From the NCBI GenBank assembly GCA_001630475.1, contig KV419473.1:1-28200 (forward strand): a DNA stretch of 28,200 nt. The letters are read 5' to 3'. This document shows, one piece after another, positions 3,894 to 28,104 of the stretch. Origin of the DNA: Sistotremastrum niveocremeum HHB9708. Its lineage: Eukaryota; Basidiomycota; Agaricomycetes; Sistotremastrales; Sistotremastraceae. Position numbers and translations under genes: made by a program. The notes beneath the pieces were generated by a model, which was not told where the DNA came from, searched no databases, and saw only the letters and a list, made by a program, of their open reading frames with translations. Each line of letters begins with the position of its first letter. Position 1 is the first letter of the stretch.

Positions 3894-4322
3894 TCATCTA
3901 TGGAGGAAGTCAGAGATTTTAGAGATGGGAGCATTGGACTGATACATAACAGAGTCCTGGAACAGGTAAGCGTTCGCATATCAATGGATGGTCTGTACAT
4001 CACCAAAACGGGACTCACCAAAGAAATCGACGTCTCACATCCTATGATATCCATGACATCCATCATTCCCATCCTAGGATGCTCTCTCGCACGCTTACGA
4101 CAGTACATCCATAATATTCCATCTCAAGTTCAGAAGCCCATCGCACTCCGAATGTTGCAAGACCAGAGAAAATCTGGATACGAAGGCGCTGACGAAGAAA
4201 TTTGTCGGTACGTCGATCCAGCTGCCTTTTTGGTCCGGAAGCTGCCTGACTAACATCGTTCTCGAGCCCTGCAGAGTAAGCACAGTACACAGGAGACAAC
4301 CGTCCGACATCTGTGGCCACAA
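3894..4322 (-). CDS. putative 3' exons of unit 1 gene
   Basis: Three pieces join in frame. The first (about 4322-4099) includes the segment W-I-D-V-P-T-N followed by FFVSAFVSRFSLV. The second (4073-4019) reads MGMMDVMDIIGCETSISL. The last (3956-3894) reads DSVMYQSNAPISKISDFLHR and stops with TGA. The 62-nt intron 3957-4018 has a GTGAGT donor and a TTCCAG acceptor. The join at 4074-4098 would need an intron of only 25 nt, which is doubtful. Unit 2 conserves VPTN[FL]FV and the ETSIS segment at the protein level, which argues that the minus strand is or was coding. Function unknown. Confidence 0.4.
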
Positions 4323-4580
4323 GAGCTTTACGCCTGCCAGCCTGAGATCATGAGAAAAATTGAGCGTTCTCCATCTCGTGCTTTAAGGTGGATGATCGAC
4401 TAGTCATTTGCCTTACGCATTCTATGAGCTTCAGAGAATTGCCTCGATTATCATTGTGATATCTGGAGACGGCCACTTCGATTAAAAGGCGTTGAGGACG
4501 AAAGGTCTGGCAGACAGCGAGTCGGCGGAGTTGGAAATATCGCTCCCTCCTTCCGTCGTCCAACTTTCGAACACAAAACC

Positions 4581-4630
4581 AAATTTCGAGCAAAAGCCTA
4601 ATTTAGCATTATCCAATAATGTAGTATACA
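4581..4630 (-). repeat. LDN block of unit 1
   Basis: On the plus strand: TTCGAGCAAAAG, then ATTATCCAAT (4608-4617), then GTAGTATAC. On the minus strand the core reads LYTTLLDN. Relative to the other copies there is one extra base between TTGGATAAT and TCGAAA (18 versus 17), which would put a +1 shift in the conserved frame. Confidence 0.6.
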
Positions 4631-5493
4631 ATTCTAGATATCTATTATTATGTCCAGCAATACCCCCTGCCTTCCCATACACGGCAACTCAGGGCCAGAC
4701 CACCTCTCTGAACAATTCGGCTGTTCGTGAGTTGTGCCTAGGAATATATGACTTGAAGACCTATGCACGCAAGATCACGCTTTTTGCCTTTGCCTCCACC
4801 CAGCACAGTCAACACGTCTATTTGAAAATAGTCAATAAAATTCCATTCAAATCACAGGAACTATTCCGAACCACTCGCCGCTTCAAACAGCTTGAAGATC
4901 ACGTTCGAAACGAACTGGATGTTGAACGCGGTTGTGGATGCGATGCGGCAGAGAGGATTCAGTGCAACTTCAGCTATCTGGTGTACGCCGAGCGCAAAAC
5001 TCTGATACACGTGAGGAATCGCGCGGACGGAACGTAAACAAATAACACTGACCGGACGGCAACACCATGCAATATCGTGCCGGTGTAGTTAGGGAATAAA
5101 AAATGGCTGCAGCCCTTTGCCAGAGACTATCCCTATATGCGTCGTGAGCCGAGGGTACTTGGGCAGAGGATAAATGATCAGACAATACCGCGTATTTCCG
5201 ATGGTTGGGGAGAGCACTAGTTAACATGGCTTTGTCTTATCAGTATCGAGAGCAGAATTGCTGAGCCACCGAACGGGCTTACTAAGAAGTCAGTCGCTGA
5301 AGGTTCATCCATCGTGGCAGAGTCCTGCGAAACTCCTTTGCGGCGACTCTAGAATGGGATATTGATCGAAGCAATTAAGTCGTGTACTGAGAGTAGTTGA
5401 TGTGGCGGATTCAAGGAAGGGATGTTTAAAGAGAGATTGGAAAGCTGGGCACATTCAGCAGGATGGGATAGGAGCAGTGAACCCTTAACACAC

Positions 5494-5553
5494 AGATAGA
5501 GAAAGATGGGGGATCGATGGGGGTCGTCCTCCAAAATCTGAGAGTTTATATAC
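5494..5553 (-). promoter_or_regulatory. core promoter of unit 1 (TATA plus CCCCATCT tract)
   Basis: On the minus strand GTATATAAA (5545-5553) is followed within 60 bp by repeated CCCCCATC and TTTCTCTATCT. The same TATA-to-pyrimidine-tract arrangement occurs at ten other places in the window, always in this orientation. It is read as a TATA box plus transcription start region. Confidence 0.6.
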
Positions 5554-5613
5554 CCAGCGTAGACCCTTCCAAACTCCGAATCCCCAGAGTCGATGACATC
5601 GAACCATCGGAAA

Positions 5614-5776
5614 TGTCAGTCAACGGAGGCACGATCTCGATCTGCATGACCCGATCGCTGACGATGACAGGTAGGCGCCTCGGGAGAAGCGCTGCCATAT
5701 GAAGAGGATAGAAATGAGCGCTCGACGATCATTCGATCTCCCGAAGTGATCATCGGAAGGTCTTCGATTGACAGGT
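5614..5776 (-). promoter_or_regulatory. conserved upstream block of unit 1
   Basis: This 163-bp stretch aligns with 7481-7648 upstream of unit 2. Shared pieces include AGTCAACGGAGGCACGATCT and GAAGTGATC[GA]TCGG. It is followed by TCTTCGATTGACAGG, also present upstream of unit 3 (10081-10104). It lies 60-220 bp upstream of the TATA box and is rich in GATC/CGATC, so a promoter-proximal regulatory role is plausible. Confidence 0.5.
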
Positions 5777-5867
5777 GCAGTAGACGCCGCCGAAAGACGT
5801 GGAGTCGAGGAGGGTCGGATTCAAATAGAAGAGCGGGGGAGAGATCGGGGGATTCTTGCGATCGATG

Positions 5868-6171
5868 TCAATGATTGGATGCCCAGAAGTTTTTCGGAGT
5901 GAGACTCGCCGACGAAATTGACGTCTCTGAGGCCATGAGATCTATGACATGCAATATTCCCATCTTCAAGACCTCTCGCGCAGGGATAGCACTTCCAATA
6001 ATATATGCCATATGAGATCCAGAACCTCTTCGCACACCGAATATGACGAGACAGAGAACCGTTGGAAACGAAAACGTAAGACAAAGAGATTTGTCGGTAC
6101 GTTGTTCCAGCCTCGGATAGCCGCTGAAGCTGGCCAAATAACATCGTGTTCAATACCTCCACATTGGACAA
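5868..6171 (-). pseudogene. unit 2 counterpart of the unit 1 3' exons
   Basis: This stretch aligns with 4019-4260. It keeps W-N-N-V-P-T-N-L-F-V and MGILHVIDLMASETSIS, but these lie in different frames with no usable GT donor between them. Relative to unit 1 there is also a one-base length difference just before the VPTN segment. Either splice sites have moved or this copy is a broken gene. Confidence 0.4.
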
Positions 6172-6478
6172 GCTAACATGAGAGAACTGCTCAAAATCTG
6201 AGAAAATCGAAGAGCTCTAGGCTTGATTCGCTTGAAAGCTCATCGTGTTGTTGACAGTTCAGCATGGTTCAGATTGTGCCTTGAGGCGGATGGGCGACTA
6301 GTAATTTGCCATATGCATCCCATGAGGTTCATACGTTCGTTCCGATGATCATTTCGAGATTTGGAGACAGCCACAATGAGCGGAAGGCGTTGAGGACGAA
6401 AGGTATCGCAGACAGCGAGTCGTCGGAGTTGGAAATATTTATGTCTCCTTCAGTCAGTCGAATTCCGAACACAGAACC

Positions 6479-6530
6479 AAATTTCGAACAAAAACATTTC
6501 TTGTCATTATCCAATAAAGTAGTACATCAT
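6479..6530 (-). repeat. LDN block of unit 2
   Basis: TTTCGAACAAAAA, then ATTATCCAAT (6506-6515), then AGTAGTACAT on the plus strand. The minus strand reads CTTLLDN followed by FCSKFGSVF, nearly as in unit 1. The frame upstream is closed by a TGA where other copies have a leucine codon (TTA/TTG). Confidence 0.6.
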
Positions 6531-7372
6531 GGCACACGACAACGGCCAAACCAGGTAAACGAGCGGCACACCGTTACACGATCACTCAGTGCCCCACTGC
6601 GTCCCGCAAACGATCTGAGCTGTGGCGAGTTGTTTATATATATGTAGACGACCAAGTGCTTGGCCGAAAGATTAGCTCATACAAATGCTTAAGCGAAGTT
6701 AGAGCAGTCAGTCTTCAGATCACAATGAGTACAATTCTGTGCATAGAGGATAGCAAATCACGAACCAATATTTGCGGGTCTCGAGGTTGTGATATCCCGT
6801 TCGGGACGATCTGGAGATGGAGCCGTGATATGGAGGCGAAGCAATGCGCGCCGAGGTCATCGACATGAGTAGCCCGAAGTACGCCTAGCGCATTACCTTG
6901 AAACATATGAGAATTTACGCAGACGAACCGTGAAGAGAGAAAGCTGACCAAGGACTATATCGCCGGAGTAAATCCTAGATTCCTTCACACTTCTTCGAAA
7001 CTACATGGCCTGTATGCGTAGCGTAAGATGGACGGCATGATATGAGAAGGAGCCGAAGAACCATGACGCGTGCTGCCGATGGTCGGGCATCAGATGTACT
7101 GGAGAGACTTTGCCAACAATCAGTATCGCAAAAAGCAAAATCGTGTCACGGGATGAACGTACCGGCGCGTTAACTGCACAAAGCAATATCCACCTCGACA
7201 GTATCTGGACAACTACTGAGCAGAGATTGTCGTCGCGAGAGGATTGTTGTCCGATCAAGTCGTTGATAGAGAGTAGGGAATGTGTCGAGGAGATGGATCG
7301 GAGGTGCGCAAGAAAAATAGATGGTCGGGCGGACCGACAAAGAAATAACAGAAGCCGTGGCAAGCATTCATT

Positions 7373-7433
7373 AGATAGAGAAAGATGGGGTATAGATGAG
7401 GGAACGTCCTCAAAAAGCTGATTCTTTATATAC
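7373..7433 (-). promoter_or_regulatory. core promoter of unit 2
   Basis: Minus-strand GTATATAAAG (7424-7433), followed by CTCATCTATACCCCATC and TTTCTCTATCTAA. Same arrangement and spacing as in unit 1. Confidence 0.6.
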
Positions 7434-7480
7434 CCCTCCACATCAAGCTTCCCGATCGACGTGGCATCGTACGCTCGGGA

Positions 7481-7648
7481 GATCAGTCAACGGAGGCACG
7501 ATCTCGATCTTCATGACCGATCGCAGACGAAGGAAGGCGCCTCGGAAGAAGGGAAGCGCAGCCTCATGAAGAGGATAGGAGTCAGCGCTCCCCGATCACA
7601 GGACCTCCCGAAGTGATCGTCGGGAAGTTTCGATCGACAACCTGACGG
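7481..7648 (-). promoter_or_regulatory. conserved upstream block of unit 2
   Basis: Partner of 5614-5776, with the same order of pieces. The similarity continues further upstream to about 7785, where GATATTTTGAATTG and GAGCCGTGTCGATCGG match 10210-10258 above unit 3. Confidence 0.5.
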
Positions 7649-8256: not shown

Positions 8257-8528
8257 TACTGTGCTCCAACAAACTAGTGTCCCTACCCCTGTGACATGTG
8301 ACCAAAATGAACCGAGTGTCCCACTGTCCCAAACCGAGAATTTTTGTGTGACCAAGGGAAAAAATGTGTCCCAAATTGCATTTCTGAGCGAAAAAATGAA
8401 TTTTTATATTTTATTTCATATAGAAAGTGTCCCAAATTCTCGTGTGACAAGTGACGGGACACTTTTTAGTGTCCCAATGAGAGGCAGTGTGACGCGTGAC
8501 TGGGACATATGATTGTTGGAGCACAGTA
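8257..8528. mobile_element. Tc1/mariner- or pogo-like MITE with TA duplication
   Basis: TACTGTGCTCCAACAA at 8257-8272 is perfectly inverted at 8513-8528. The outer TA on both sides fits a TA target-site duplication, so the element proper is 8259-8526 (268 bp). The terminal repeats continue imperfectly to TGTCCC on both ends. GTGTCCC occurs at 8277, 8316, 8366, 8427 and 8469, and inverted at 8456. These copies look like subterminal transposase-binding sites. GGGACACT and AGTGTCCC (8456-8475) can also form a hairpin. The centre is A/T-rich and there is no transposase ORF, so it is non-autonomous. Confidence 0.85.
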
Positions 8529-8880: not shown

Positions 8881-8932
8881 GAAATTTCGAACAAAAAATC
8901 ATATAGTATTATCCAATAGCATCGTACATAAT
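8881..8932 (-). repeat. LDN block of unit 3
   Basis: TTTCGAACAAAAAA, then ATTATCCAAT (8908-8917), then GTACATAATT on the plus strand. The minus strand reads LCTMLLDNTI, then a stop, then FFVRN. Confidence 0.6.
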
Positions 8933-9686
8933 TACAAGAAGATCACATGTGGCAACAGATTCAACAACAACGTCGCTAAACAGAATATTGCGTCGAATCC
9001 GGAACTACAGCGAATGTTCGGCATTTGCTAAGCGGAGCGACTGCGGCGCTGGACCCGAAGACTTATAAAATCAGATGATATTTTCATCGGCTTCTGGCCG
9101 TTGCTCTTATCATGTTTCCCTACCGCACAAAGTTAGGAAAAGATCACAGCGCAACAAAAGAAGAGATCACATACCTTCTCGTAATCTGAACCCCATAAGA
9201 CCACCTCCAGTCGCATTCTGATACTCGAGCGTCTGACAAACATGAAGCAAGAGACGTGGGGACCGGTCAGGTCGTCATATACTCCATCACGGTAGCACAT
9301 TCTCTGATACATTCAATCAGCCACGCGAAGATAATGAAATAAATCGGACAAACCATCGCATGATCATGATGAACATCGGCCTCACGATGAGCTTATAGTG
9401 GCGGATAGTTCTAGGTGAGGGAACAAGGAGGTCTGAGAGTGCTCGAGGGTTACGATGGGCGGCAGCCGAATGGCACTGGCATAGCTGGCAAACGGTCAGA
9501 CTGACGATGTCTCAAATCGGATTATAAACTGACGCAGAACATCATCAGAGAACTGGATACCGCATCGTCGGAGAAGAAGCCCCAGAATCAAATCCGACGC
9601 GAAGAGTCCGAGTTGGAGAAGCGCATGCACGCGGATATCAGCGATATATGTTCTGATAGGATGGTAAACCGAGGAACCAAAATATG

Positions 9687-9754
9687 ATGGGGGTAGATAG
9701 AGGTAGATGGGAGGTAGATGGGGGAAATGCGACTGATGTTGAGTCCTTATATAC
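9687..9754 (-). promoter_or_regulatory. core promoter of unit 3
   Basis: Minus-strand GTATATAAG (9746-9754) followed by three CCATCTACC-type repeats and CTCTATCTACCCCC. Strong match to the other unit promoters. Confidence 0.6.
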
Positions 9755-10060
9755 TCCTCAGCGTCGACTTTTCGTCCACCGTCGAAAGTCGAACGATCGG
9801 GAGTAGGAATCGATCGACGGAAATATACGGCTGGTACGTCTGAAGATTGCTTGGCAGTCGGAAGCATAGGGAACAGCTTCAACTACGTCGGTCGAAGGGA
9901 AGTTGTCGGAACAGAGAGGCGCTCGATACATCCAGCGCCATGATCGGGAGGATCAACAAATGAGGCCCGATCTCGATTCCGACCACTCAATGGCGGAGAA
10001 GAGAGCTCGGGAGAAGCTCTTCCAGATCGAAAGCATCCGTGACAGCGATCGTCGATCAAT

Positions 10061-11048: not shown

Positions 11049-11312
11049 TCAAAGCTTCACATTTCTTGCGAACGGAACAGATTTTCGAACAAAAAGTAGT
11101 ATATTATTATCCAATGAAGGGATACATAAATCAAGGGAAAGTAATCGACAGTCACCGACGATCCAATAGAGAGCATACAAAACATTGAGGCGGTTATACA
11201 TATGCTCCGGCAGCTTCAACAGTCCTACTGAGAATATTGATGCGTGACTACAGAAGGCTACCGAATCGAACCAGATGCCGGAGAACCCATTCAGACATCC
11301 CCGGTCACGGAC
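11049..11312 (-). CDS. putative exon of unit 4 containing the LDN motif
   Basis: Right after a CTCTAG acceptor (ending at 11313) an in-phase frame of 87 codons runs to a TGA at 11049. It begins VRDRGCLNGFSGIWFDS and includes YWIVGDCRLLSLDLC and PSLDNNILLFVRK. The last part is the conserved LDN motif, so the block here lies well inside an open frame. No known domain is recognised. It may end the protein, or a further splice may carry it into the SAMNLLF segment. Confidence 0.4.
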   Translation of the reverse strand, partial: VRDRGCLNGFSGIWFDSVAFCSHASIFSVGLLKLPEHMYNRLNVLYALYWIVGDCRLLSLDLCIPSLDNNILLFVRKSVPFARNVKL

Positions 11313-11968
11313 CTAGAGTAGGAAAATTTCATAAATGTTGCAGAAGAAAGAAAGCAGGAGGCGGCGTACCGATTATCCAGTGCTCGGACTCCATGGTCTT
11401 AGATTCGTATGACCCAATCTCAGCAACGGCTCGTCGCGTCTCGAAGCAGCACACTTTTTGTCAAGTATAGACTATTCCCTGAAAATCAGAAAGATAAATA
11501 AAGACTATGATAAGCACGAACAGACTTACCCAAATACGCCCGGAGCAAATCCGACAAGACGAATTGCAGTCGAACGCTTGAGCTCGTATATGTGCTCATG
11601 CACCTGAAGCTGTCTGACTGGCAGTTAGTGCAATGCGTCGAAAGGAACAGGGCCCAGGAGGCCGTGATGCGAAGGTCGTCCGGCAATCCACACATTGAGA
11701 ACGCTTTCGGAAAGTATTAGCTTCAAGAGACGCGGTCCAGATTTCACGAGATAAGCTTACCATCTGGTGTTCGGTGGGGCCAGCGTCGGCTCGTCAGACA
11801 ACACAAGACCTATTAAAGCCTCCATAAAACGATGAGAATCCGATCGACGGCAGGTAGTGTAGCGAGAATGAATGATGTGAGATAATCAAGAAAAAAGCAT
11901 TCACGATGCAGAGACACGTCGAGATTTCGCCGGCAAGACGAAGAAGGACCGATTCAAGTTCAAAGGAA

Positions 11969-12028
11969 GATAGAGATAGATGAGTGTGAGATGGGGAAAG
12001 TTTGGACAGAGGCTTCAGCCTTATATAC
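11969..12028 (-). promoter_or_regulatory. core promoter of unit 4
   Basis: Minus-strand GTATATAAGG (12019-12028), then CCCCATCTCACACTC and ATCTATCTCTATC. Standard unit promoter. Confidence 0.6.
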
Positions 12029-12439
12029 CCCATCGTCCCCTTCCTTCTGGTCTATTCGACGATCCGAAGATCGTTCGATCTGGAGCGACGAAGGACGGGA
12101 CTTTTCGGCAGTTACTTCGAGAATTTCTTGGCGACCGTAAGGAAGATTGACAGGCATCTTGACAAGTGAGATGGGGACGGAGCACAGAAGCACGCGAAGG
12201 ACCAGCTGCCTTCATCGGGAGGATCGGGAGATTGGTGAACTGAGGCTCAATCGCGTTATGGATGGCTCAAGGGGAGGAAGATGATCTCGGGAGAAGCGTT
12301 GGTAACGAATTTGCAGATACAGCGATCGTCAGAAGGTTTCCAATTGAAATTTCAACCGTGATGGTTTTGACTCTTGAGGATCTCCAATTTTCCTCTGGGG
12401 AATTCTTCCGGCGCCGCGGTGGAAAGCTGGATGGAGAAG

Positions 12440-12643
12440 CTAATATTCTTGCTGTGCGGACGACCGTTTTATCTCCATATTCCGTGGTATTTCAAATAGT
12501 AGTTGATCGACACTGACCAGAGTAAAGAGTTCGAAGAGAGAAGCATCGTTGAGAGCAAGCTGTCGGAGTATGAAAAGCGTACTCGCGAGGGAATAATCTA
12601 AGCTGGTTCGGGTTTCTCGGCCTGAGTTTGTGGACTTGAACAC
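12440..12643 (-). CDS. putative 3' exon of unit 5
   Basis: An open frame of about 67 codons ending in TAG at 12440. It reads TSLDYSLASTLFILRQLALN, then SLFELFTLVSVDQLLFEIP. Position and the D-x-S-L-x-x-x-x-F-[VI]-L pattern agree with ISNSDDSLSAIPFVL of unit 2, supporting a coding origin. The listed 5' end is only where the frame opens; a splice acceptor upstream is likely. Confidence 0.35.
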   Translation of the reverse strand: MFKSTNSGRETRTSLDYSLASTLFILRQLALNDASLFELFTLVSVDQLLFEIPRNMEIKRSSAQQEY

Positions 12644-12708
12644 GATCTATACCTCCACAACATAGCGATTTTCTTTTGCTGTCTCTACTGCTCAACTTCG
12701 AGGCCTAA

Positions 12709-12758
12709 GATTCCGAACAAAAAGAAGCACGATATTATCCAATGATGTGGTACATAAT
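12709..12758 (-). repeat. LDN block of unit 5
   Basis: TTCCGAACAAAAAG, then ATTATCCAAT (12734-12743), then GTGGTACATAAT on the plus strand. The minus strand reads SLDNIVLLFVRNLRPR. Confidence 0.6.
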
Positions 12759-12883: not shown

Positions 12884-13236
12884 TCATCGAATATATTCTT
12901 GCTGAAGCACGTTGAGGAGCGACACCCATGATCCTTGCTTCCTCTAGGGACGGTGATTGAGCGTTGTGTTGAATTGAATATTAAAGAAGACAATGACGCA
13001 CCTCACTCTCGTCTTCGATGCTTACGCAAACTTTCCTGTGGCCACTATAGTCGCTGATATCGAGCTCGTATTCATCGCCTACGCTGAAACATGAAAGCGA
13101 TCAGTTTATTTCGATTTGATACCAAATGAAGGGAATCTTACGGCGCAAATATGGAGCCCAGGAGGCGAAGTTTTACGTACGAATGTACCGAGCTGAGAGT
13201 AAGCACTATGTTGGAGGCCAAACGAAAGGATCGATA
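12884..13236 (-). CDS. putative middle exons of unit 5
   Basis: Three exons join in phase: 13236-13142, 13083-13002 and 12943-12884. The two introns are both 58 nt, with GTAAGA/TTTCAG and GTGCGT/CCCTAG borders. The product reads LSSVHSYVKLRLLGSIFAP, then VGDEYELDISDYSG, then RKQGSWVSLLNVLQQEYIR and a TGA. A short Y-x-L-D motif in the second exon recurs at similar positions in units 6, 9 and 10. The first exon's true 5' border is uncertain, and no family is recognised. Confidence 0.4.
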
Positions 13237-13520
13237 CTGCATAATTTTATCAACGGAATGTAAGTATAAGAAAAGAAATCGGAGAATGAAGACTCACGCC
13301 GAAGATCTCAGCAAGCTGTCACTCTCACACGATTCGTCAACGTCAATCGGAACGACTCAATATCTTTCCCGAGCACAAAGTCGAGGCAAGACCGTAGAGG
13401 ACCGGTTTACCAACACGAAAATGTCAAGGATTTTAGATATTGAAGGTGATGAGAGATAGCGGGGGCAAGAGGGTGAAAAACAAGAGCATGACGAGCACAA
13501 GACGAACAATAACAGTAGGA

Positions 13521-13574
13521 AATAGATAAGGGATAGATGGGGTATTCGCAAGAGGGCAATGGGTCTTTATATAG
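13521..13574 (-). promoter_or_regulatory. core promoter of unit 5
   Basis: Minus-strand CTATATAAAG (13565-13574) followed by ACCCCATCTATCCC and TTATCTATTTCC. Confidence 0.55.
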
Positions 13575-14494: not shown

Positions 14495-14550
14495 AAGATT
14501 CTGGATCAAACGAAGCATCACATTATCCAAGACGAGATATATAGTAAATG
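14495..14550 (-). repeat. LDN block of unit 6
   Basis: ATTATCCAAG at 14522-14531 with a diverged ATCAAACGAAG in place of TCGAACAAAAA. The minus-strand frame reads YLVLDNVMLRLIQNLR, close to unit 8 (LILDNTMRRLIRIR). These two differ in many bases but agree in residues. Confidence 0.55.
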
Positions 14551-15193
14551 AAAGTGATTTGTGTTAAGCTGCTCGGCAATCCGCCAGGTTTCTCGCTCCG
14601 TACACCACATCCCTTCACCAATCAACCTCAGAGTCGAGCAGACCAGGTCGACTTACTCCAGCTATCGCCCCTAAACCGCACAGCCAAGCCTAAACCAGAC
14701 GAAGAATCGGGATCAAAGGGTCATATGACCATTTCGTTTGGGGTTTGAAAGGAGGGTTCTATGGGAATAAACCAAGATGAGCCGCTTTATTTCGACGATT
14801 GAAAGAAAAGAATTAAACGCACTATGTGGGAAGGTGAATATGTTGAGCAGAGGACGATGGAACGGCAATGTCGATTGACGGTGTTGCGAACGTGTAATAC
14901 ACCATTGTCTCGAAGACACCCTATCAGCCAATAAAACTTATTATCAGCATCGAGAATATAGACATCATGAGGTTGGTCGACGTACATTTGAAAAGTCTGT
15001 ATACATAATCGAGCGTGGAAGAGCTGACTCCGTAGGTCAAGAATATATCCGCAAGTAGAGAGGTGTCGAGCCGGATAGGTTGTGCTTTGCTAGAGGGACG
15101 TCTATCGCCGACGCGCTACGTGATGCAAAGGATAGAGGAAGTAGAGTGTGTCTATGCAAGAAGGAAGAGCTGTGACTTCTACGAGTTACATTC

Positions 15194-15248
15194 GGATAGA
15201 TGGATGAAAGATGGGGAAAAAGTAGACAAAACTTGACGCCTTATATAC
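15194..15248 (-). promoter_or_regulatory. core promoter of unit 6
   Basis: Minus-strand GTATATAAGG (15239-15248), then TTTTCCCCATCTTTC and ATCCATCTATCC. Confidence 0.6.
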
Positions 15249-15589
15249 CACAGGAGTCCAGAAGAGATCGTCGATGGAGAGTCGAGACAGCTGTCATCGG
15301 AAGAAAACTCGATCATAGGAACGACTCGGATGGATACTCGATGATCGGCTTGGCATTCGGAGAGACCTGGAAGTTGCAGGGACTCGATCGAGTTTCCGAT
15401 GAAATCGGAAGAATATCTGTCAAGCAGATCGATCGATCGCTGCCGAGCTTTGGATATCGGACAAATCGTCAAGGGGAGGACTCTGTTTGACATGGGACTC
15501 GGACCCGGGAGTTGAACACTCGTTCCGACTGATACTGTTTTCAAATTTTCTTCGAGACCTTACGGCTTCAAAAGTCACCCCAGGACATC

Positions 15590-16400
15590 CGGACAAAAAT
15601 AGCATATATTCAAAAATACCCTATACTAAAAACACCACATCGTATTCTCGCACACCAGACACGCAAGAGCCCCTATTAGACGGACTGCAAAGGCTCGAAG
15701 ATAGGAGGAGACCGTTTGCGAAGGTAGTTCTCGAGAAGGAAGAGACGGCCTGGCCAGACTGCACATGAAGTCAGTGATCATCGAACCGACTGTGGAGCAA
15801 CACCTACCAACAATGCCCACAAATGACTGATGAAAGAATGCGCTATCTCAAGCTTGATCCCACATTCGGCGACCGTCCTTCATTTGGGGTCATGAGCGAT
15901 CGCGCGAGACACCTGGAGATATCCAGATCAAAAATGGCCCGATCGCACGCCCAGAGAGGAAAGGAACTCACCAAGTGAATGTGAAAGGAGTATCGAAGGC
16001 AAGTCTACTCCCCCGATGTAAGACAGTGGTCGCAGAAAGGCGAACTAAACAGCACTGTTCGTCAGCTACGTATCGATGAACGAGAGGTGTAAGAAAGACG
16101 TGCCTGGAGCAGCTAGTGGCGGTGCAGAACCCTGGAAAAAACGAGCGAGGAGACAGATCCAAGAAGTGTCATCGCAGCCATCCCACCGAGGAGTATGTTT
16201 GGATATAAGTGAGAGGATAGATAGAGTGAGATGGGGTAAGATGGGGAATCGTTCGTTCGAGGGGAACAGCTTTATACTCCAGAGACGTCCGAAGATTCCG
16301 GAAGAGCTACATGTAAGAGGGGAGATCGGGCGGACACGATCGACGGACCAAACCCGTTGTTCGACAAAGTGATCAGGCTTCTTTCGGGGCCACACGGAAG
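15590..16400 (-). repeat. array unit 7
   Basis: Promoter 16215-16277. A degenerate LDN-type block lies at 15590-15632, where GGACAAAAATAG followed by CATATATTCAAAAA replaces TCGAACAAAAA and the ATTATCCAAT core. Coding signal in between is weak: several GT/AG pairs and short frames, but no conserved peptide that I could match. Confidence 0.4.
16215..16277 (-). promoter_or_regulatory. core promoter of unit 7
   Basis: Minus-strand GTATAAAG (16270-16277) followed by CCCCATCTTACCCCATC, then CACTCTATCTATCC. Confidence 0.55.
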
Positions 16401-17318: not shown

Positions 17319-19989
17319 TTACTTGGCCTTCTCCGCGATAACGGTACTGGCTCGGATAGCATAGCACATGCTAGTCAAAGTCGGATTCGCCGCAAAGGCA
17401 GTCGGAATGATACCGTTTCCGCCCAAGAAGAGATTGGAGAAGTCGTAGACTTGAGAAAACTCATCGACGACCGAGTAATTCTTGACGTTTCCGGGAGGAT
17501 GGGGTGGTTTCGCGGATTTGCTGTTGTGCCGAGCCGTTGCGTCAACGTTGAGTCTTAGGAAAGATGAGAAACAGATTGCTTACCCAGGTTGGAATGCGCG
17601 GAAAGTTCCCTAAGGCGGTGTTAGATTGTGCCTTTGGCTCACACGAATGCGTACTCACGGCGAGATGAAGGGCAAGGCCAGGCTCCAAGAATTGAGGTTC
17701 AGAACCAGGAAGATACCCGCCGAGTTTCGTAGCAACCTGCCAGACGTGATTAGCGCTTCTTTACTGGTCCGTATGTGCTAGCAGGTCCTTACGTTGGTCA
17801 TACTGATGTTCAGATCAGTCAGGGATCACGATCGATATGAACAGTAAAAGACTCACTCAGCCATCATCATGCCACTCTCTTTCCTAGACTGCGGAGTCAT
17901 CTGGAAATGGAAGGTGGGCTGTGGCATATCGTATCCGTCACGGTGCTTATCGCTAAACGTCAAAGTATTTGTCTCGACGGGCTCATTGCGTCCGAAGAAG
18001 CGCAAGTCGACTACGACCCTGCTGTCGATGGTCGCGCCGACTTTACCGTACGAGAATGCATCGCGGTGGATCTATTTGATCGTGAGAGGGGGCATCGAAT
18101 TAGGCTGAATGTTACTGACCTGAGTGTGCCAGGGATGTTCCTTCGAGATCGGGCTCGTGACCTGTCGAAGTAGTGAATTGGATTATGAGTCGAGGATGTA
18201 AACTTTCTTGATGGACGCACTTGTGGCTCGGGCTCGTCGAAAGGCATCGCAATAGGATCCAACGGGAAGTCCCTTATATGGTCCTCGACTCTCTTCTTCC
18301 AGTCCTCCTTGGGATGTTCTCGAACGTCGGCGATGAGATCACGGTACAGCATGATCTCTGTTATCGACCGTGAGACATACTTGAGATTGGATTTCGGTGG
18401 AAGACTTACGACAGAAGGCCATGGTTTGTTCGGTGATATATTTCCCCTGAAAGCGGATCAATAATTAAAGAAGACGATTAACGGGTAGTCACAAATCACT
18501 CACCAGCGCCGGCATCTCCTGTTCTTTAGCGAAGAACGAATTTGCAAGGATCTAGATTCCAGTTAGAATCGATGCAAAGCAAGGACCACTGTAGAAGATA
18601 ATTACCTGAGGAGTTCCGACAGCACCAGCTGCAATAATATATACCTTTGCCTTGACTTGGACGTTCGTATCGACCTTCCCGAGGCGAAGGCGCGTGCATT
18701 CGACGAAATCTATCTCTCCTTTGCCGGGCAATTGCCAGACGCGAGTGCATCGTGTGTTCGGATAGAGTTCGAAGAAATCGCCAGCTCTGACAACTTCCTC
18801 TTCATCTACTTTGAGGGAGACTCCCAAATCCTTCAGCACAGTATGAGCTGAATGCCTAGCGAAGAGACAACGAAATCAGCGTCAAAATAGTGGAAATATA
18901 ATTTTAGATGACATGCCAGGTAACGAATCTTGGGTCCACGGTATCTCTATCGCAAGCCAACGGCAACGCTTTGAATTTTCTAGCAGGGGCATTACCGACA
19001 GCCGGGAACTCCTTGATAAGTGTGTCCAAGACCAATTGATGGCGGATCGAATGGGAGAACTGGTTTTCTCCGACACCAATGAGTTTCTTTGCCCTCGTAT
19101 ACAGCCTTACCCATTCGGCATTGTTCTTGGTATCATCTTCGTCTAAGCGAGGCCTTTCGAGATCGGGATCCAGCTCGGGGCATGCACAGGTCCAGTGGGT
19201 GGACATGCCGCCGACGCATCGGGTCACGGCTTCCGCGCCAAGATTGAATTCTGGCAGCTGCTCCGGGTTCTGATTGTTGCGAACGAACCATTTGGAGCTA
19301 GAGTTTGCTTTAGTTGAGAAGACGAACAAGTGTTGTGGGATTAACTTACGCTCTGGCGTTGGGATTGTTGTCAACTGTGACTTTGATGTCTTCAAACCAC
19401 GGAAGGAATACCCTGATGTACAACACGATCAGTGGGTCATATCCTTGAGAAGCTCAGACGACGTACTCCGGATCCGCATTTGTGACAGGGACGTTGGTTA
19501 CCGGCACGGAAACCGTACTCAAGTCTCCCTATATTGATGCGTCAGAATCTTGCTCTATATACTCACAAAGGCCACACATACCTGAATGATGTGAACGAAC
19601 CTATCGATGTCTGGAAAATTGACTGAGTGAATAACAGAGCAGCGCTGACAATGGCATTAGCAACCTTTCTGAAAATCGATACTGTTCTTCTTGTGGCTAC
19701 CAGGCACTGCGGTGTCGCTTCAAGAATAATCAGTATGACTGCAGTCGACGGGGTCCATGATTCTCTCACAGGCCGCCAATATCGGTCATAAGGATCTTCA
19801 ACTTTGGGTTAATGCGATGTAGTTCCGCGGCGAAGGTGGCCCCAATAGGACCGCTTCCAGCGATGAACACCTGAGGTCCGTGATGAAAACACATTTCAAA
19901 TGAGAGAATGAGCGACCGACATCCGGTGTGAGCGTCGTGGACAATTGCGGGAGGGCTTTGGCTGCCTTGTATTCTGCGGAGTGGTCCAT
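17319..19989 (-). CDS. pyranose 2-oxidase (GMC-type flavoenzyme), 615 aa, 17 exons
   Basis: Exons, minus strand: 19989-19921, 19870-19770, 19717-19665, 19622-19582, 19528-19467, 19412-19350, 19297-18917, 18855-18606, 18551-18504, 18446-18410, 18357-18221, 18161-18120, 18071-17857, 17802-17793, 17736-17659, 17609-17584, 17553-17319. They sum to 1848 nt with all phases consistent. Seen: FAD dinucleotide-binding [14 protein letters not shown] (residues 24-37); the [10 protein letters not shown] motif whose His164 matches the histidine covalently bound to FAD in Trametes pyranose 2-oxidase; YITEQ and PFDEPEPQ; the substrate-loop region HRDAFSYG; catalytic His527 in LHLAGT; catalytic Asn594 in AANPTLTS. 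Length is close to the family's roughly 620 aa. In the family the enzyme oxidises glucose and related pyranoses at C2 and reduces O2 to H2O2 or reduces quinones. No signal peptide is seen. The region between the catalytic His and Asn is about 22 residues longer than in Trametes as I recall it, so substrate range may differ. Confidence 0.93.
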
Positions 19990-20072
19990 GATAAACGGTG
20001 GATTGTGTGTCTGTTAAACTTCGCTTGAAGATGTGCTTGTGAGGTGAAGAATGTCCAAGTAAGATGGGCAGT

Positions 20073-20078
20073 CTTATA
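20073..20078 (-). promoter_or_regulatory. TATA box of the pyranose oxidase gene
   Basis: Minus-strand CTATAAGAC places a TATAAG 84-89 bp upstream of the ATG at 19989. It is followed closely by GCCCATCTTAC, reminiscent of the CCCATCT tract in the array promoters but much nearer to the TATA box. The start context is TTATCATGG, with A at -3. Confidence 0.5.
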
Positions 20079-20099
20079 GGAGAAAAATTAGCAGCTCGC

Positions 20100-22900
20100 A
20101 CGGAACCAGAAAGTCGGCCGCAGCACACCTGTCGAATGTTGAGAAAGAGCCGATGCCCCGAGCTGGCTGTCATTCTGGCATCAGTATGACCATATCCTTC
20201 GAGTATTGCGAACCGCGTGGGTGAACGAGCACGGTAACATTGGCAAGCCGTTGTAGACCATTGTGAACTTATGAGTCCTGAGTCCCAGAACAGCTGGTGC
20301 AAAGGAAAGCCGTGCTCCCGATTTGCTAGATCGCTGTGGACGTAAGAAGCTCTGCACTGTAAGCGAGAATGATTAGCGTGAAGCGTGGAGCCAGAAGAGG
20401 AGCGGCTTAGGTCCTACATACTTCCCAGGAACGCAGTGCATTTGCCGAGGCTTCCTGCAACTTAGGATTTGCGTGTGCCAATTGTTATATGTGACGGCGA
20501 ATGTCGGAAGCGAAGTGTCTGGATAGCTTTTGACAACAGCCGCCGCCGCAGCTCACAAAGGTCGAAGAACTGTAAATGCGAATCAAGATACCAGAAGGTC
20601 TAAAGAAAGTCGCAGAGTCCCAATATTAGTGCGAGGACGGATTGAATTACACCCATTCTCCGATGATGACAGAGCTTTTTACTTGGTATTCAGTCGCGCC
20701 TCGCATTGAATCTCAAAATCTCCAGACGAAATTGCATGGAGTTTAGAAGGCTGAGGGATCAAACGTGCAGGTTGCGATGAGAATAGAATACTCCCGCAAC
20801 GCCATCTACAGGTTTTGCCCTATCGGCAATTCGAAAAGCCCGCGCGAAGAACCGCTTTCATCCTGAAAGATACCTATGCTATCGATATGAAGGACGAAGG
20901 TGGTTCCATAGTCCGACCAAAGTCGAGTCCGGCAACTGGTGGAGAGAGCGCAACCGAAGAGTCGAACTTGCGGTTTGACAGTTCTTAGATTCAGCAGACT
21001 GTGGGTACACCGAGTATCTGGCTTTAGAGTTGACTTCATGTCGGAGAGAGCGGTTTGCGTTGAGAGGGCGAATCACTCTAGTTTGCAAGCCTGTTCAACC
21101 TTCCCGTCATGGTGCACAGCACGAAAGATTATCGTGGGAATCTCACCCTGACGGTCGTTCTAACTTCCAATTGCAGTCCGACGTTTTTGAGGCCATTCTT
21201 ACAGAATAAATCAGTTATTATTGAATACATCATGCTACTCCTCGTCATCAGCAATTACTGGAACTCAGTCTGCTTCATTTAGCCAATCTTCCGAGTACAA
21301 CCGACAAGCTCAACGTCACCAACAGGTAATATTTTACATTTCTACCAGGATCAGCTGACGATTAAGTTGTCGGAATATGCGGCCGTAGCTGCTTTGAGAA
21401 GCGAGTCACTCCCTCGAGACTAGGAGACTAGAATGAGTTCAGATGAGGTCAAGGGACGTCAGAGAATAGAGTTGCGGGCTGTCCCGGCTTCTCTCGGAAA
21501 ACGTAAATGTTCCGGACCCCTTCGGCTGCCGGACCCGGTCATAGAGCTCTCACACCGCTGAGCCACTCTGAAGCCGACGTCAACAGAGGATGCTACCGAA
21601 TAAGCTCGGCATCTCCACGCACAAGTTTCGTGTGCGCAATTGAGAGTCTTCAATGAGATTGAAGTGTAGACTGAGTATGATGGCCGATTGTTCCGCTGCA
21701 GTTAGGTGGAATTAATTGGCAGGGTGTTGCCGCGGACTGATATAAATGTGGGGAAGTGCGCAGTGCAAGCATTCATTGAGGGTCCGTGAGGCGATTCAGA
21801 GGGCAAGTATTGATTTCAAAGAGTTATTGTGTATGAATTTTTGAAGCCGAGCGCAATCGAACGAAGGCCGCGAGCACCAAACATGCCGAGAACAATGGTG
21901 CCAACAGAAGGCTTCCCAGAAGTGACACTTGAACAAATCAAATCTGAGATGACGCTGCCGATGAGTTGAATGATCAAGAGCAAACCCCATAATCAAGGGT
22001 CGCGGAGACTGGCTGAACTGAGGTCAAGGGTTAGATGATCTGATTGCGCCAGTGTTGTTGAACTTCAGAAGAGCTTCGAGGAGGCTGTACAGTGACAGAA
22101 CGCAGCGGATAATAATAAAACGCACTTGGTGTGGGATTTCTGAAGACGATGTTCGCCCGAGTTTCGTATCATCGAGCTAGACGCTAGAATAGGCGCCGGG
22201 TACATATCAGCCAACTCCCGAGAACCAGAGCCAATCAAGCAGGGCGTAAAAAGGGGAATGTTGAGCGAGATATTGAGCCTTCTGTTGAGCAGATTGCCAC
22301 ACGATCGGCAATGAGGAGAGGATGGAATCCGTACAAGGTCGCAGGCCGTGTTCAAAGCCCAATCGTCTCGAGAGCGTAGCTTATGATACGTAACTGAAGA
22401 TCAAGATTCAGTCAATTTATGACGTAGAATAGGTTCACGACGCACCTGTCTCGACATGGATCTCTCAAGCTTTCGTCTCTCATCTCTCACTTCGATCGAT
22501 GATTGGCAAGACGAGGTGGCACGAGCGCTCAGACCTGATAATATGATGTAAGATTCACGAAGGTCGTAGAGCAGAGATGATTACCATGGGGTCAGGCATA
22601 ACGAGTTGGCGAACGCCTCAGATTCCTTTGCAGTCAGTCAACGCCCGATGATGGCCCCTATCTGCCGATTTGTCAATTTCCTCTTCTCACTCACGACACC
22701 TCACTGGAGTCCAATGTAGCCATATTTGAATAACTTCTTCAGAATGGGAATATCGAACGAAGCAAGCTTGGGCGAAAGACCGAACGTGTCATCAAAGCGG
22801 TTCGAGTAAAGACAGTCGGATATGGAAGCAGTGAATCAGGCAATCTCAAATCCAGTTCTAGTCCAACATTGACGTCCCGTAGCACATTTCAGATTGAATC
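20100..22900. other. 2.8-kb region without a supported gene
   Basis: Only short overlapping frames in both directions. On the minus strand between about 22060 and 22860 several stretches are protein-like (for example SNRFDDTFGLSPKLASFDIP near 22770-22810) and donor/acceptor pairs exist, but no consistent join could be made. This may be the decayed 3' part of unit 8. A plus-strand GATATAAATG at about 21739 is the only TATA-like site noted. No promoter block of the array type is present. Confidence 0.4.
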
Positions 22901-22903
22901 GCT

Positions 22904-23155
22904 TCATAACGACGAGCGAGTCTCAAGAGAGCCCAGACAACGCCAGACGTGGCATGAAGAGGCGGAGTTACAATCTCGGTCCAACGCTATGAGAATATTA
23001 CGTAATGAACTCGTTGTTCGTTTGTTGACTCGAGTTTTCTCGTTTCCGTGCGCACTGCGGATTCGAATCAAACGTCGCATAGTATTATCCAATATAAGAA
23101 TATCTACAGCGCAAACTTCTCGCGCCTCAAGGGACAAGACGGAGAGAACACCCAA
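22904..23155 (-). CDS. putative exon of unit 8 containing the LDN motif
   Basis: An open frame ending in TGA at 22904. It includes EVCAVDILILDNTMRRLIRI and, later, TTSSLRNILIALDRDCNSAS. The LDN stretch agrees residue by residue with unit 6 (VLDNVMLRLIQNLR), better than the DNA does. The listed 5' end is arbitrary (first start-like codon); an upstream acceptor is expected. Confidence 0.35.
   Translation of the reverse strand: MGVLSVLSLEAREVCAVDILILDNTMRRLIRIRSAHGNEKTRVNKRTTSSLRNILIALDRDCNSASSCHVWRCLGSLETRSSL
23061..23105 (-). repeat. LDN block of unit 8
   Basis: ATTCGAATCAAACG then ATTATCCAAT (23084-23093) on the plus strand. Core conserved, flanks diverged. Confidence 0.6.
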
Positions 23156-23247
23156 GCATGCGATAAAAGACAGAGAATCTCACAAAGATGCATCTCGATA
23201 CCTGCCTGAAGGAACCTCTTCCGCACTGTCTTTACGAGATTGAGAAC

Positions 23248-23600
23248 TTATGCGGTTCTGAATCCCCCGCCAGACAGAATTTTATCGGGATTCCCATTAC
23301 GAGAAACCAAAGTCATCTGTTATAGTTGTGAGGATCTGTAATTCAACAAAGATATCCGATAAATAAAATACGTACAATCGTCTTAATCTTGATTTTCTGT
23401 GCCAATCGGTCGAAACTCACAGACGAATCCTCATCCAACAGCCAACCGTTCCCAAACGTCACGAACGACCTTGAGAGTGTCAACTAGGAAAGAAATGGAA
23501 AATATGAAACTCGGACTTACGGAGACAGATATTGGGCGAGCGGAGATTGTCAATCTGAAGGCGAAATGACAGCAAAAACGTTCAGGCAATCTGTAGGAGG
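23248..23600 (-). CDS. putative middle exons of unit 8
   Basis: A frame ending SARPISVS at 23521 joins across a 37-nt intron (23484-23520, GTAAGT to TTCCTAG) to 36 open codons (23483-23376: LTLSRSFVTFGNGWLLDEDS, ending KIKIKTI). These join across a GTACGT...AACAG intron (23317-23375) to 22 codons plus TAA (23316-23248: MTLVSRNGNPDK, then ILSGGGFRTA). All joins are phase 0. The W-L-L-D segment corresponds to the Y-x-L-D motif of other units. An alternative phase for the first join is also open for a short way, so the model is tentative. Confidence 0.4.
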
Positions 23601-23876
23601 ACTCCCTTATCAAATTCAATGAATACTGATTCAACTGATGATCGGGGATAAGAATATACGCACCGAGCCTTTTTCCTCCTTCGATGGTGGAGCCTTCACT
23701 GTGCGAGAATATCTGCAAAGATCCAGCAGCGAGGAAGTCTATCTCCCTTTGACCAAACACGATATTCGTCACCAAGATAATTTAATTGGAAGAAAGCAAT
23801 GTCACGCATATCCAAGATGTAGAGTGAAAAGGAAGACGGTCAAAAGGAAAGATAAAAGAGGACCCTCGATGAAGAA

Positions 23877-23941
23877 GATAGATAGAGATAGATCGATGGG
23901 AGATGGGGGACTTTCGAGCCAATCTTGGTCTCCTTTTATAC
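23877..23941 (-). promoter_or_regulatory. core promoter of unit 8
   Basis: Minus-strand GTATAAAAGGA (23931-23941) then CCCCCATCTCCCATC and GATCTATCTCTATC. The TATA box is TATAAAAG, the best canonical form in the window. Confidence 0.65.
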
Positions 23942-24250: not shown

Positions 24251-24880
24251 TTTCGAACAAAGAATTTATAGAATTGCCAAGAGTAAAGACAACAAATAGA
24301 CCAAACACAGAAACCATACTGAAGCACTCAGACCCGGACCTATGCACGTAACATCAACGGCTCGGGAGCTCGATAAGCTATACCAGAGATACGTCAGTGG
24401 CGTGGCGGATGAATAGTTCGTAAACCTTACATAGATGCTGCGTCTACCCCTTATTCCCGAGAACTCCAACGAGAGCGGTCCTAGTCGAAACACCCAGTTC
24501 TTCAGGCAAAGACTAAGTCGGAGTAAAGCATAAGATCAGCTGATGCGTACCATGTACAGCAAAGAAAAGCTCACAGAATCTAGGTACGCTAGAGATGCAG
24601 CTCAAGAGTCATGGGCCTTCATGATGCCGAAACCGACAGTACTCGAGACTATGAAACGGCATCCATTCAATGCACAGTAGATGAAAGAGAATCAACGAAC
24701 GTACCGTCGTCCAGAACTGCAGTACCGAGACCCTCAGTGCGAGACATGCCAAGAAAGAGAAGGTGCAGGGGTGCAGTAGTCTGGTAATGGAGAGAGACCA
24801 AGAAGGGGATATATGTCTGTGAGATGAGGGGAGATAGAAGGAGATGAGGGGAATCCGTCACAAACGACTTGTTCTTATAC
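24251..24880 (-). repeat. array unit 9
   Basis: The shortest copy. Promoter 24822-24880; a degenerate LDN block at 24251-24295 (TTTTCGAACAAAG then AATTGCCAAGAG). The minus-strand frame there reads VFTLGNSINSLFENICF, still parallel to LDN-x-x-x-x-L-F-x-x-N. A small spliced frame MSRTEGLGTAVLDD, then AYLDS, then SLPEELGVSTRTALVG can be built with GTACGT/CTCTAG and GTGAGC/ACTTAG introns and ends in TAG, but it is very short. Confidence 0.4.
24822..24880 (-). promoter_or_regulatory. core promoter of unit 9
   Basis: Minus-strand GTATAAG (24874-24880) then TTCCCCTCATCTCCTTC and TATCTCCCCTCATC. Confidence 0.5.
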
Positions 24881-25721: not shown

Positions 25722-25737
25722 CGCCGACGACGCAGGA

Positions 25738-25798
25738 TAGATGGGAAGAAGATAGAGAGAGATGGGGGAATCCGTTCGTCGAGGTGCCCTTCTTATAC
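25738..25798 (-). promoter_or_regulatory. core promoter of unit 10
   Basis: Minus-strand GTATAAG (25792-25798) then TTCCCCCATCTCTCTC and TATCTTCTTCCCATC. Nearly the same as unit 9. Confidence 0.55.
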
Positions 25799-26140
25799 TC
25801 CAGCGACTCGACGAAGATCGGGTTGTTGATCTCGATCTTCGGGACGTACGGCTCAGATTGACAGGATCGACAGGAGTTCTCCGAGACCATCGGGAGAGAC
25901 GGGAGCATTTCTGGCAGATCGAGTCGAAGGCTGCGATCGATCGATCAACTCCGGCGTCTAATCTCGATCGACGTTGGCGACGAATAGGGAAGGAGCCAAG
26001 AGTCCACCAGATATGTGCCATGTGCCGCTTGGTGAACGTCGATGAGGGAGACATGTGGGAGATGGCCGGTGAAGTGATACGCTGAGCTGAGCGAGTAGGG
26101 CATCGCAAGACATTTGCGTTGGATGACAGAATGAGCAGCA

Positions 26141-26455
26141 TTACCAAGTCGAGATAGTCAGCGTGAATCCGGCGCGAGAGATGAGGGACTCGTACGAAAC
26201 GATACATGAGCACGTTGTCGACACCACACAAATCTTCTCCCAGACGCGCATGGATGGATACGAAAGTCGCAGATCAAGAACCCAAGTCACGAAAATGAAC
26301 AGTATCCGCGCATCCACAGCAATACGCACGTTCATGCCTAGGTATTGACAGTTCGAGAGAGTCTCATGACCGTCCGTAGTCCAGAGCTTGTAGAGCAGTC
26401 GAATTGACTCGAAAGCGTCCAATGCGAGGATGTAAGCGGAGTTCGAAATTCTCAT
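26141..26455 (-). CDS. putative 3' exon of unit 11 (up to 104 aa)
   Basis: An ATG at 26455 opens 104 codons. It begins MRISNSAYILALDAFESIRL and matches the ISNSADSLSA segment of units 1 and 2 at the same distance from the LDN block. The rest is hydrophobic with Trp and Cys (for example LFIFVTWVLDLRLSYPS). A GTGCGT donor after GMN might cut the frame earlier. Confidence 0.35.
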   Translation of the reverse strand: MRISNSAYILALDAFESIRLLYKLWTTDGHETLSNCQYLGMNVRIAVDARILFIFVTWVLDLRLSYPSMRVWEKICVVSTTCSCIVSYESLISRAGFTLTISTW

Positions 26456-26499
26456 GTTGGCTCATCGACGACTTCGTATTCTGTCCTCATTTGACACCG

Positions 26500-26550
26500 C
26501 AGATCAGGCGGAAATAAAATGCAGTTATCCAATCCAGCAAAAATGTATCA
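26500..26550 (-). repeat. LDN block of unit 11
   Basis: GTTATCCAAT at 26524-26533. The minus-strand frame reads DTFLLDWITAFYFRLICGVK and then stops, with Trp replacing the Asn of LDN. The plus-strand flank AGGCGGAAATAAAATG is diverged from TCGAACAAAAA. Confidence 0.5.
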
Positions 26551-27310
26551 TCAAAGCGAGTAATTGGGCGAATCGGAGGGAGCCTCAGGATCGAGTCGAT
26601 CGAGGGCGCATCAGATCGAATGAGAATCATGTGGAAGGCTCTGGTTGATAATGCCTGAAGATCTCAGATATCATTAGTGCACATCACCTGAATTGTCTTG
26701 GCAGAAATCCCAACTTCCGAGAGATAGATGCGCATATACGGTACGAAAATCATATATTCAAGCAGTCATAATGCTTCCGGAGCATCTGTAAATAGTTCTA
26801 ACCATATATCACCCAGATTCAAAAACCCAAACGTTCGTCAGAGATATCAAGAGAGGTATGCAGTTCGCCTATTCAGCGCCGAGGTTCATTAGCAAAGACT
26901 GGCCTGATAACTGAGAGAGAGAGAAATAACGCACAGCTCCGCCGAGCCGCTAAACCCGCGACGCTACGATGAGCGACTTGGTATGCCGCAGTTTACAGGG
27001 AACCGAGTCGTGCTGACGCCTTCCCGTCAGTTTCAAATTGGGTAGTAAATAAATGAGAATGCTCACCCAGGTCTCTCGTATTGAATCCACGACTACTCGA
27101 CTTTCTCGAGCATGTCGAACAACTCTGAATAGCTAGTCCAACCATCAATCGAAGCAGCTCGCAAGGAAGATCAGAGAAACCTACAAAAGTCCATGGCTCT
27201 CGGAGTGGATCAAGAACCGCATGTCGAGTAACTGATCGTCAAACAAGAAGCACTGACAGCATTATGAGCAATCCAAGAGAAAGCCCCGGAAACCAAGACA
27301 TCTTAAATAA

Positions 27311-27364
27311 GGTGAGATGGAAGGAAGATGGGGGAGTCGACACTCGGACGCTGACCTTATATAC
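27311..27364 (-). promoter_or_regulatory. core promoter of unit 11
   Basis: Minus-strand GTATATAAGG (27355-27364) then TCCCCCATCTTCCTTCC and ATCTCACC. Standard arrangement. Confidence 0.6.
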
Positions 27365-28104
27365 GCCCAAGGACTGAAGGTTTGGGCCGATACGATCCAA
27401 AGGTATCTTCATCCTCGGAACGGGTGGAGTCAATTGACGGGTCTTCTCAGAGGATCGCAGAGGATCTTCTGTTGGACGAGATTAGTCCTATCGGAGTGCT
27501 ACCCGATCTGGTTCCTCAATCGTCCGAATCGATTCGATTGACACGTTGACAGACAGAGATGTTCTCGGAAGGAATTGAGAAGAAGGAGCTTCCGGAGATC
27601 GGAACGCCAAGTGCAAAGATCGCGGGGAAGCTTCTTGGGAGGATCGATAAGTGATCGAACTGAGGTGAGCCCTCATCAATGGTCCCATCTCTCGATCCGG
27701 CAGATATCCTGCTCCATTGCTCTTTATTCTCAAGAAATCTTCTTCTCTTCATTCTCTCCCCGTTACCCGGATTCTCGTCAGGATCCGCCTGCAAGTTCCG
27801 GAAGAAGAAGTCGAAGCCGGAAAACCGAGGGTCGACGATCGTGAAAGGGGTGGGATCGAGGAAGGACGAGGACAGTGAGTATGAATGTTGTAGTGATGTC
27901 GTTAGCGAGGTAGCATGCGTTCGCCGAGCAACATATATGTTGATCTGAAGGACACGTCATCCGTCACTTCGTCTATCCCGAGTCGAAAATAACATGAGGC
28001 AAATAACAGTAGCCGGAGAGCATGAAGAATGATCCATGGTCTGAGAATAAGGCCTGAGGAGTTGACTAAGTTGGCGAATATCAAAGAGGCCACGTCGGTG
28101 GGCT

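Follow-up and report, generated by a model that had tools for sequence, protein, structure and literature searches.

Grass PHAS loci are numerous and clustered, give noncoding RNA polymerase II (Pol II) transcripts, and have unlike bodies that each carry a short common motif, and Caenorhabditis 21U-RNA genes are separate Pol II units that lie in clusters and have a common upstream motif and unlike products. Grass reproductive PHAS loci are precursors of phased small interfering RNAs (phasiRNAs; PMC7057497), and the 21U-RNA genes are PIWI-interacting RNA (piRNA) genes (PMC7917558, PMC6367137). We analyzed an array of gene-like units in the fungus Sistotremastrum niveocremeum HHB9708; the window is the whole stretch of 28,200 nt that was analyzed, bases 1-28200 of contig KV419473.1 (C80; 53,553 bases), and the assembly searched comprised 34.7 Mb in 111 contigs. 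The array probably belongs to a family of hypervariable noncoding RNA genes that are Pol II-type, spliced, and clustered and that multiplied by tandem duplication, and PHAS loci and nematode piRNA genes appear, by analogy, to be nearest to it in logic. On sequence grounds, its units are clustered and combine a common control motif with unlike bodies, as expected of the PHAS/piRNA type. The grass loci resemble the array in clustering, unlike bodies and a common short motif, but they are plant loci and their motif is a microRNA target site, whereas the array units have a common promoter and putative 3′ box and predicted introns. The 21U-RNA genes are likewise clustered separate units with a common upstream motif and unlike products, but they are very small and each yields a 21-nt RNA, whereas the array units measure approximately 1 kb and have predicted introns.

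Eleven minus-strand promoters were found in the window, at 5.5-27.4 kb (TATA positions 5552, 7432, 9753, 12027, 13573, 15247, 16276, 23940, 24879, 25797, and 27363). Unit spacing was 0.9-2.3 kb, with the single exception of a 7.7-kb gap (16276 to 23940), which is occupied by a pyranose-2-oxidase-like gene. Self-BLAST of the window (E ≤ 1e-3) gave six off-diagonal matches, all six on the same strand (for example, 4012-4626 with 5903-6524, 70% identity, 2e-64; 5494-5773 with 7373-7639, 76% identity, 2e-45). The promoters and same-strand matches bear out the original prediction of a same-strand tandem array of approximately 11 units, and the self-alignment that it had proposed as a check did reveal off-diagonal similarity. 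The array does not stop at 27660, where that prediction had ended it: four further promoters, all on the minus strand, lie beyond the window on C80 (TATA at 31394, 33725, 41336, and 43966; 20 kb examined).

Across the whole assembly, a tally by hand gave at least 94 sites on 12 contigs, a lower bound drawn from the matches listed, with pattern variants missed. Repeats were removed by hand, units from fetched DNA and from a GCCAAG-TATA-CATCT search were added, and C9 225524 and C9 316053 were included; two C37 matches in a different setting and isolated rows on C14, C2, C7, C51, and C67 were left out. Neighbouring sites less than 12 kb apart were on the same strand in 72 cases and on opposite strands in 3, and the median spacing of same-strand neighbours was 2.0 kb. 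The stretches spanning W1/W2 (5500-7500) and W4/W5 (11120-13480) had matches on their own contig only, among the best candidates scored, whereas for a small element in the window that search tool returned 26 further matches. The tandem-repeat scan found short repeats only, and the tRNA scan found no tRNA. No run of four TTAGGG was present in the assembly (three in the reversed control).

On C9, unit blocks at 94-132 kb (plus strand) and 217-327 kb (minus strand) face each other with approximately 85 kb between them, and on C54 plus-strand units face a single minus-strand unit. The two excluded C37 matches (L021 and L022, at 133028 and 147550) are promoter-like and share approximately 50 identical bases beyond the initiator; their setting differs, with a protein-kinase-like open reading frame (ORF) seen by eye.

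The 11 window promoters shared one layout: a TATA box followed, after a gap of approximately 30 nt, by a CCCCATCT-like initiator, together with additional CATCT/CTATCT words. The pattern TATATAAN{24,38}CCCCATCT had 35 matches in the genome and 0 in the reversed control, and the looser pattern TATAWRAN{22,40}CCYCATCTN{3,12}ATCT had 110 and 0, respectively; the counts of 35 and 110 contain some sites twice. Upstream regions were enriched in GCCAAG (36 of 55, compared with 2.0 in shuffles), TCGATCGA (29 of 55, compared with 4.6), and CTTCCG (41 of 55, compared with 15.1). The combination GCCAAG-TATA-CATCT, with GCCAAG 80-110 nt before TATA, gave 76 genome matches and 1 in the control, the 76 including repeated rows and a few isolated matches that are possibly due to chance. 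TATA and initiator in order suggest a Pol II-type promoter at each unit. In six within-genome pairs of units, the first 60 nt from TATA were 67-88% identical and the next 60 nt were 33-58% identical; pair profiles were at alignment-noise level over most of the body. The original prediction was thus right that conservation is higher in the promoters than in the putatively transcribed parts, but those parts, which it presumed to be coding, were at chance in most coding tests. Its "highly diverged" units do form a homologous array, with bodies that are mostly unalignable, which goes beyond mere divergence. The promoters (W1-W11) and upstream elements located in the window were as follows.

5493..5552, minus strand, W1 promoter, with TATATAA and CCCCATCT initiator
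7373..7432, minus strand, W2 promoter
9694..9753, minus strand, W3 promoter
11968..12027, minus strand, W4 promoter
13514..13573, minus strand, W5 promoter
15188..15247, minus strand, W6 promoter
16217..16276, minus strand, W7 promoter, TATAAAG variant
23881..23940, minus strand, W8 promoter, TATAAAA variant
24820..24879, minus strand, W9 promoter, TATAAGA variant
25738..25797, minus strand, W10 promoter, TATAAGA variant
27304..27363, minus strand, W11 promoter
9850..9855, minus strand, GCCAAG upstream element of W3
12127..12132, minus strand, GCCAAG upstream element of W4
15349..15354, minus strand, GCCAAG upstream element of W6

Similarity returned at the LDN block (approximately 63-85%) in most of the six pairs, L023/L024 being without such a return. 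The LDN box pattern matched 16 times in the genome, compared with once in the control. Fifteen of the genome matches were on cluster contigs, either inside a cluster or no more than approximately 4 kb away from one, and on a strand used there; the remaining one (C14) had no cluster association. A looser search of 68 entries, some of them duplicates, yielded 38 distinct boxes, mostly 0.6-1.0 kb after TATA (two at more than 1.2 kb). Within the box, the inner gap varied by single bases. In the window, a clear box followed 7 of the 11 promoters (W1-W6 and W8); the W11 box was weak (15 of 22 positions), the box listed for W9 sits within the body of W8 and is probably a chance match, and no box passing the search was found for W7 or W10. 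The order of elements in the box (UGUA, then GGAUAAUA, then a U/GU tract) presumably resembles a cleavage/polyadenylation region. In the closest relatives, substitutions in the LDN box and in the SLSA-bearing block behind it did not follow codon phase, and indels of 1-2 nt were numerous. We therefore take LDN and SLSA to be nucleotide motifs rather than peptides, and the original reading of these segments as coding did not survive. The boxes and the blocks behind them were located as follows.

4585..4616, minus strand, LDN box of W1
6483..6514, minus strand, LDN box of W2
8886..8916, minus strand, LDN box of W3
11084..11114, minus strand, LDN box of W4
12712..12742, minus strand, LDN box of W5, +831 from TATA
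14501..14530, minus strand, LDN box of W6, weaker, +717 from TATA
23062..23092, minus strand, LDN box of W8
4012..4584, minus strand, SLSA-containing block after the W1 LDN box, with 70% identity to its W2 counterpart, without codon phase
5903..6482, minus strand, SLSA-containing block after the W2 LDN box, without codon phase

Between promoter and LDN box, the bodies carried intron signals with a strong strand bias. Strict introns (GTRNGY, CTRAY, and YAG; 42-85 nt) were scanned from +60 to +800 from TATA in 58 units (63 detected, minus 5 repeats). There were 61 on the sense strand, in 44 units, and 3 on the antisense strand (mean of 200 shuffles 5.8, maximum 14), a result that predicts sense-strand spliceosomal introns. 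The 11 window units had nine sense and one antisense (shuffles 0.96, maximum 4), and upstream of TATA there was one of each. In a model-free count, splice donors were the top enriched hexamers of the bodies, and six donor hexamers occurred 174 times in sense and 30 times in antisense. Intron starts in 23 units were confined to approximately TATA+150 through LDN-150, apart from a few beyond LDN+300: the stretch from LDN-900 to LDN-150 contained 34 sense and 2 antisense starts, the stretch from LDN-150 to LDN+300 contained none, and that from LDN+300 to +600 contained 5 sense and 1 antisense. The mean length of good-scoring predicted introns was 57 nt. Those of the window are listed below.

5217..5282, minus strand, predicted intron of W1, strict consensus
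7099..7162, minus strand, predicted intron of W2, strict consensus
9120..9174, minus strand, predicted intron of W3, strict consensus
11479..11529, minus strand, predicted intron of W4, strict consensus
14921..14985, minus strand, predicted intron of W6, strict consensus
27013..27066, minus strand, first predicted intron of W11, strict consensus
26869..26934, minus strand, second predicted intron of W11, strict consensus
13084..13141, minus strand, predicted intron of W5, looser consensus
23317..23375, minus strand, predicted intron of W8, looser consensus

We infer that the units are transcribed, spliced, ended at the LDN box and functional. Each would be a separate Pol II-type gene for a spliced RNA without protein product, with transcription started by a shared GATC-rich upstream module (in many units with GCCAAG approximately 80-110 nt before TATA) and the TATA box and pyrimidine-rich initiator. 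The primary transcript would be approximately 0.6-1.0 kb long, with approximately 1-5 short introns (approximately 57 nt), and would end at or near the LDN box, presumably as at a cleavage/polyadenylation region. The family would have expanded by same-strand tandem duplication to approximately 90 clustered units. Because exons diverge whereas promoter, splice sites, and end motif persist, selection may maintain the transcription, under common regulation, and the splicing of a large set of differing RNAs, and not one RNA sequence.

A gene family that once encoded proteins or RNAs, multiplied, and is now in decay, its promoters surviving longest, would account for the lack of ORFs, for bodies that no longer align, and for units without a clear LDN box. 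This explanation is unlikely: those unalignable bodies still strongly retain splice signals and donor hexamers on the sense strand, and upstream module, TATA/initiator, and LDN box keep their order over tens of units. The original prediction had offered a locally expanded family, either diversifying or decaying; local same-strand expansion is upheld, and plain decay becomes less likely because the sense-strand splice signals are kept.

The bodies gave no convincing coding signal. Spliced longest ORFs averaged 93 aa in sense, 95 aa in antisense, and 88 aa in shuffled sequence, and first-ATG ORFs averaged 28 aa (shuffled, 25.5). In the larger set, 42 of 50 exons between good introns were open (40.3 expected), as were 9 of 19 exon pairs (8.9 expected). 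No frame was preferred at intron 1 (open phases 18, 15, and 18 of 42 before it; 22, 25, and 23 of 42 after it). Periodicity of 3 nt over 38.6 kb of bodies was 0.0009 (z 0.5), compared with 0.023 (z 3.6) in the exons of the pyranose oxidase gene and 0.033 (z 4.2) in a long ORF of no identified family. Two candidate coding signals were rejected. A spliced ATG-to-stop search of 29 loci gave a mean of 250, no better than chance (225 shuffled, sd 96; 209 antisense), and tblastx matches of downstream regions ran in several frames and through stops.

Several observations weigh against units that are noncoding, spliced, and ended at the LDN box. The ORF-length test is weak alone, because in the pyranose oxidase control it gave 86-172 aa per tile in sense (mean 124) and 64-158 aa in antisense (mean 103). 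A coding control that we take to be FunK1-like also lacked clear periodicity (0.0085, z 0.8), and the predicted exons reached 0.005 (z 1.4). Exons were open in 22 of 24 cases at the highest intron cutoff (19.2 expected), joined exon runs in 12 of 17 in the first, smaller set (7.8 expected), and exon 2 of L008, L009, and L010 in one common frame. In 15 of 35 units (5.9 expected), one frame had no stop for 90 nt from the LDN box, an excess that comes partly from the box itself, which has no stops in that frame. A spliced-ORF score that rewards introns was 169 in 27 loci (104 antisense, 106 shuffled); we read this excess as reflecting intron signal, not frame. Some promoters also have an LDN copy approximately 350-450 nt upstream of them, and LDN may therefore be a boundary or upstream element rather than a 3′ end. 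The dispersed copies on C33, C37, C54, and C96 lacked strict introns.

The open joined runs and the common frame in exon 2, together with the predicted multi-intron structure and bodies that change faster than their flanks, are what a hypervariable protein family (effector- or antigen-like) would show if it had many exons of approximately 60 nt and its protein similarity had been lost through fast divergence. In fungi and protists, subtelomeric arrays of hypervariable surface genes resemble the array in their same-strand clusters, conserved promoters, and variable bodies, but those genes code for proteins, whereas the array units carry no convincing coding signal. A protein family is quite unlikely here: the chance-level openness of exons and exon pairs in the larger set, the missing common frame at intron 1, the flat periodicity, and the short first-ATG ORFs all count against it, as do bodies on C33, C37, and C96 that are 70-74% alike with substitutions spread evenly over the phases. 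Neither exons nor substitutions kept the consistent phase expected of a tandem protein family with a conserved frame. With all coding tests taken together, noncoding units are well ahead of coding ones.

The copies on C33, C37, and C96 (L041, L042, and L044) are single dispersed units, 72-74% identical to one another over approximately 1 kb, an alignment that, unlike those of array units, spans much or all of promoter, body, and LDN box. Mismatches were even across codon phases, and 16 of 21 gaps between C33 and C37 were not multiples of three, near the two thirds expected by chance. These three units would be the best material for tests of selection. Their dispersal and long alignment, and regulatory parts better kept than the body, would also suit an element that is mobile or acts at the DNA level (such as a promoter carrier like a long terminal repeat, or a chromatin or replication element), the units being its copies and their bodies neutral spacer. 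We consider such an element highly improbable, since it would not be expected to form head-to-tail runs on one strand or to carry introns in sense orientation. No terminal inverted repeat (9 of 10 nt) was found near the tested edges of the three copies, the C33/C37 upstream edge not being reached because similarity runs beyond the fetched DNA.

Pol II small nuclear RNA (snRNA) genes resemble the proposed RNA genes in that an upstream module and a downstream box (the 3′ box) bracket a noncoding transcript, but the array units differ in having predicted introns, no Rfam match in the window (0 at gathering score), and no conserved RNA structure (z below -2 in 1 of 12 alignments). Fourteen bodies of 500 nt gave no stable fold (mean z -0.06). 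The LDN hairpin (87.5% paired, compared with 85.6%; reached by 13 of 1000 shuffles) was borderline, and no structure is claimed for it. No description of such arrays was found among the open-access titles and abstract openings listed, a scope that makes the absence weak evidence.

If the noncoding RNA genes are real, a guess, and a rather unlikely one, is that their products enter nuclear RNA processing, either as precursors of small RNAs or to control chromatin at the clusters. That the clusters are a fungal counterpart of PHAS/piRNA clusters, a library of precursor RNAs that are spliced and regulated together and whose diversity of bodies is itself selected, is very unlikely; one promoter and one 3′ box would then route all precursors to a common processing machine. 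Because gene finders look for reading frames, the units may be missed or mis-called. If transcribed, they would be approximately 90 co-regulated, intron-bearing RNA genes with preserved promoters and splice sites and unpreserved sequence; being transcribed and spliced could then be separated from having a given sequence, and a role of the RNA would be directly testable.

Other features were located in and beside the array. A 272-bp element (8257-8528), in the spacer after the LDN box of W3, has perfect 16-nt terminal inverted repeats and TA at both ends. With 26 further genome matches, several at 97%, it is a transposon family like miniature inverted-repeat transposable elements, recently active and inserted in the array. 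A 543-aa open frame at 584-2212 (minus strand) has strong 3-nt periodicity and no Pfam family above cutoff; a subthreshold BDV_P24 match (E 0.0096, 16.3 compared with 27 bits) is probably due to chance. The pyranose 2-oxidase-like gene interrupts the array at approximately 17300-20450 (minus strand); the exon at 18907-19428 (minus strand) matched solved fungal pyranose oxidases (best E 7e-31), which, like the style of the introns, points to a basidiomycete, and 18555-18875 gave a GMC_oxred_N match below the family cutoff.

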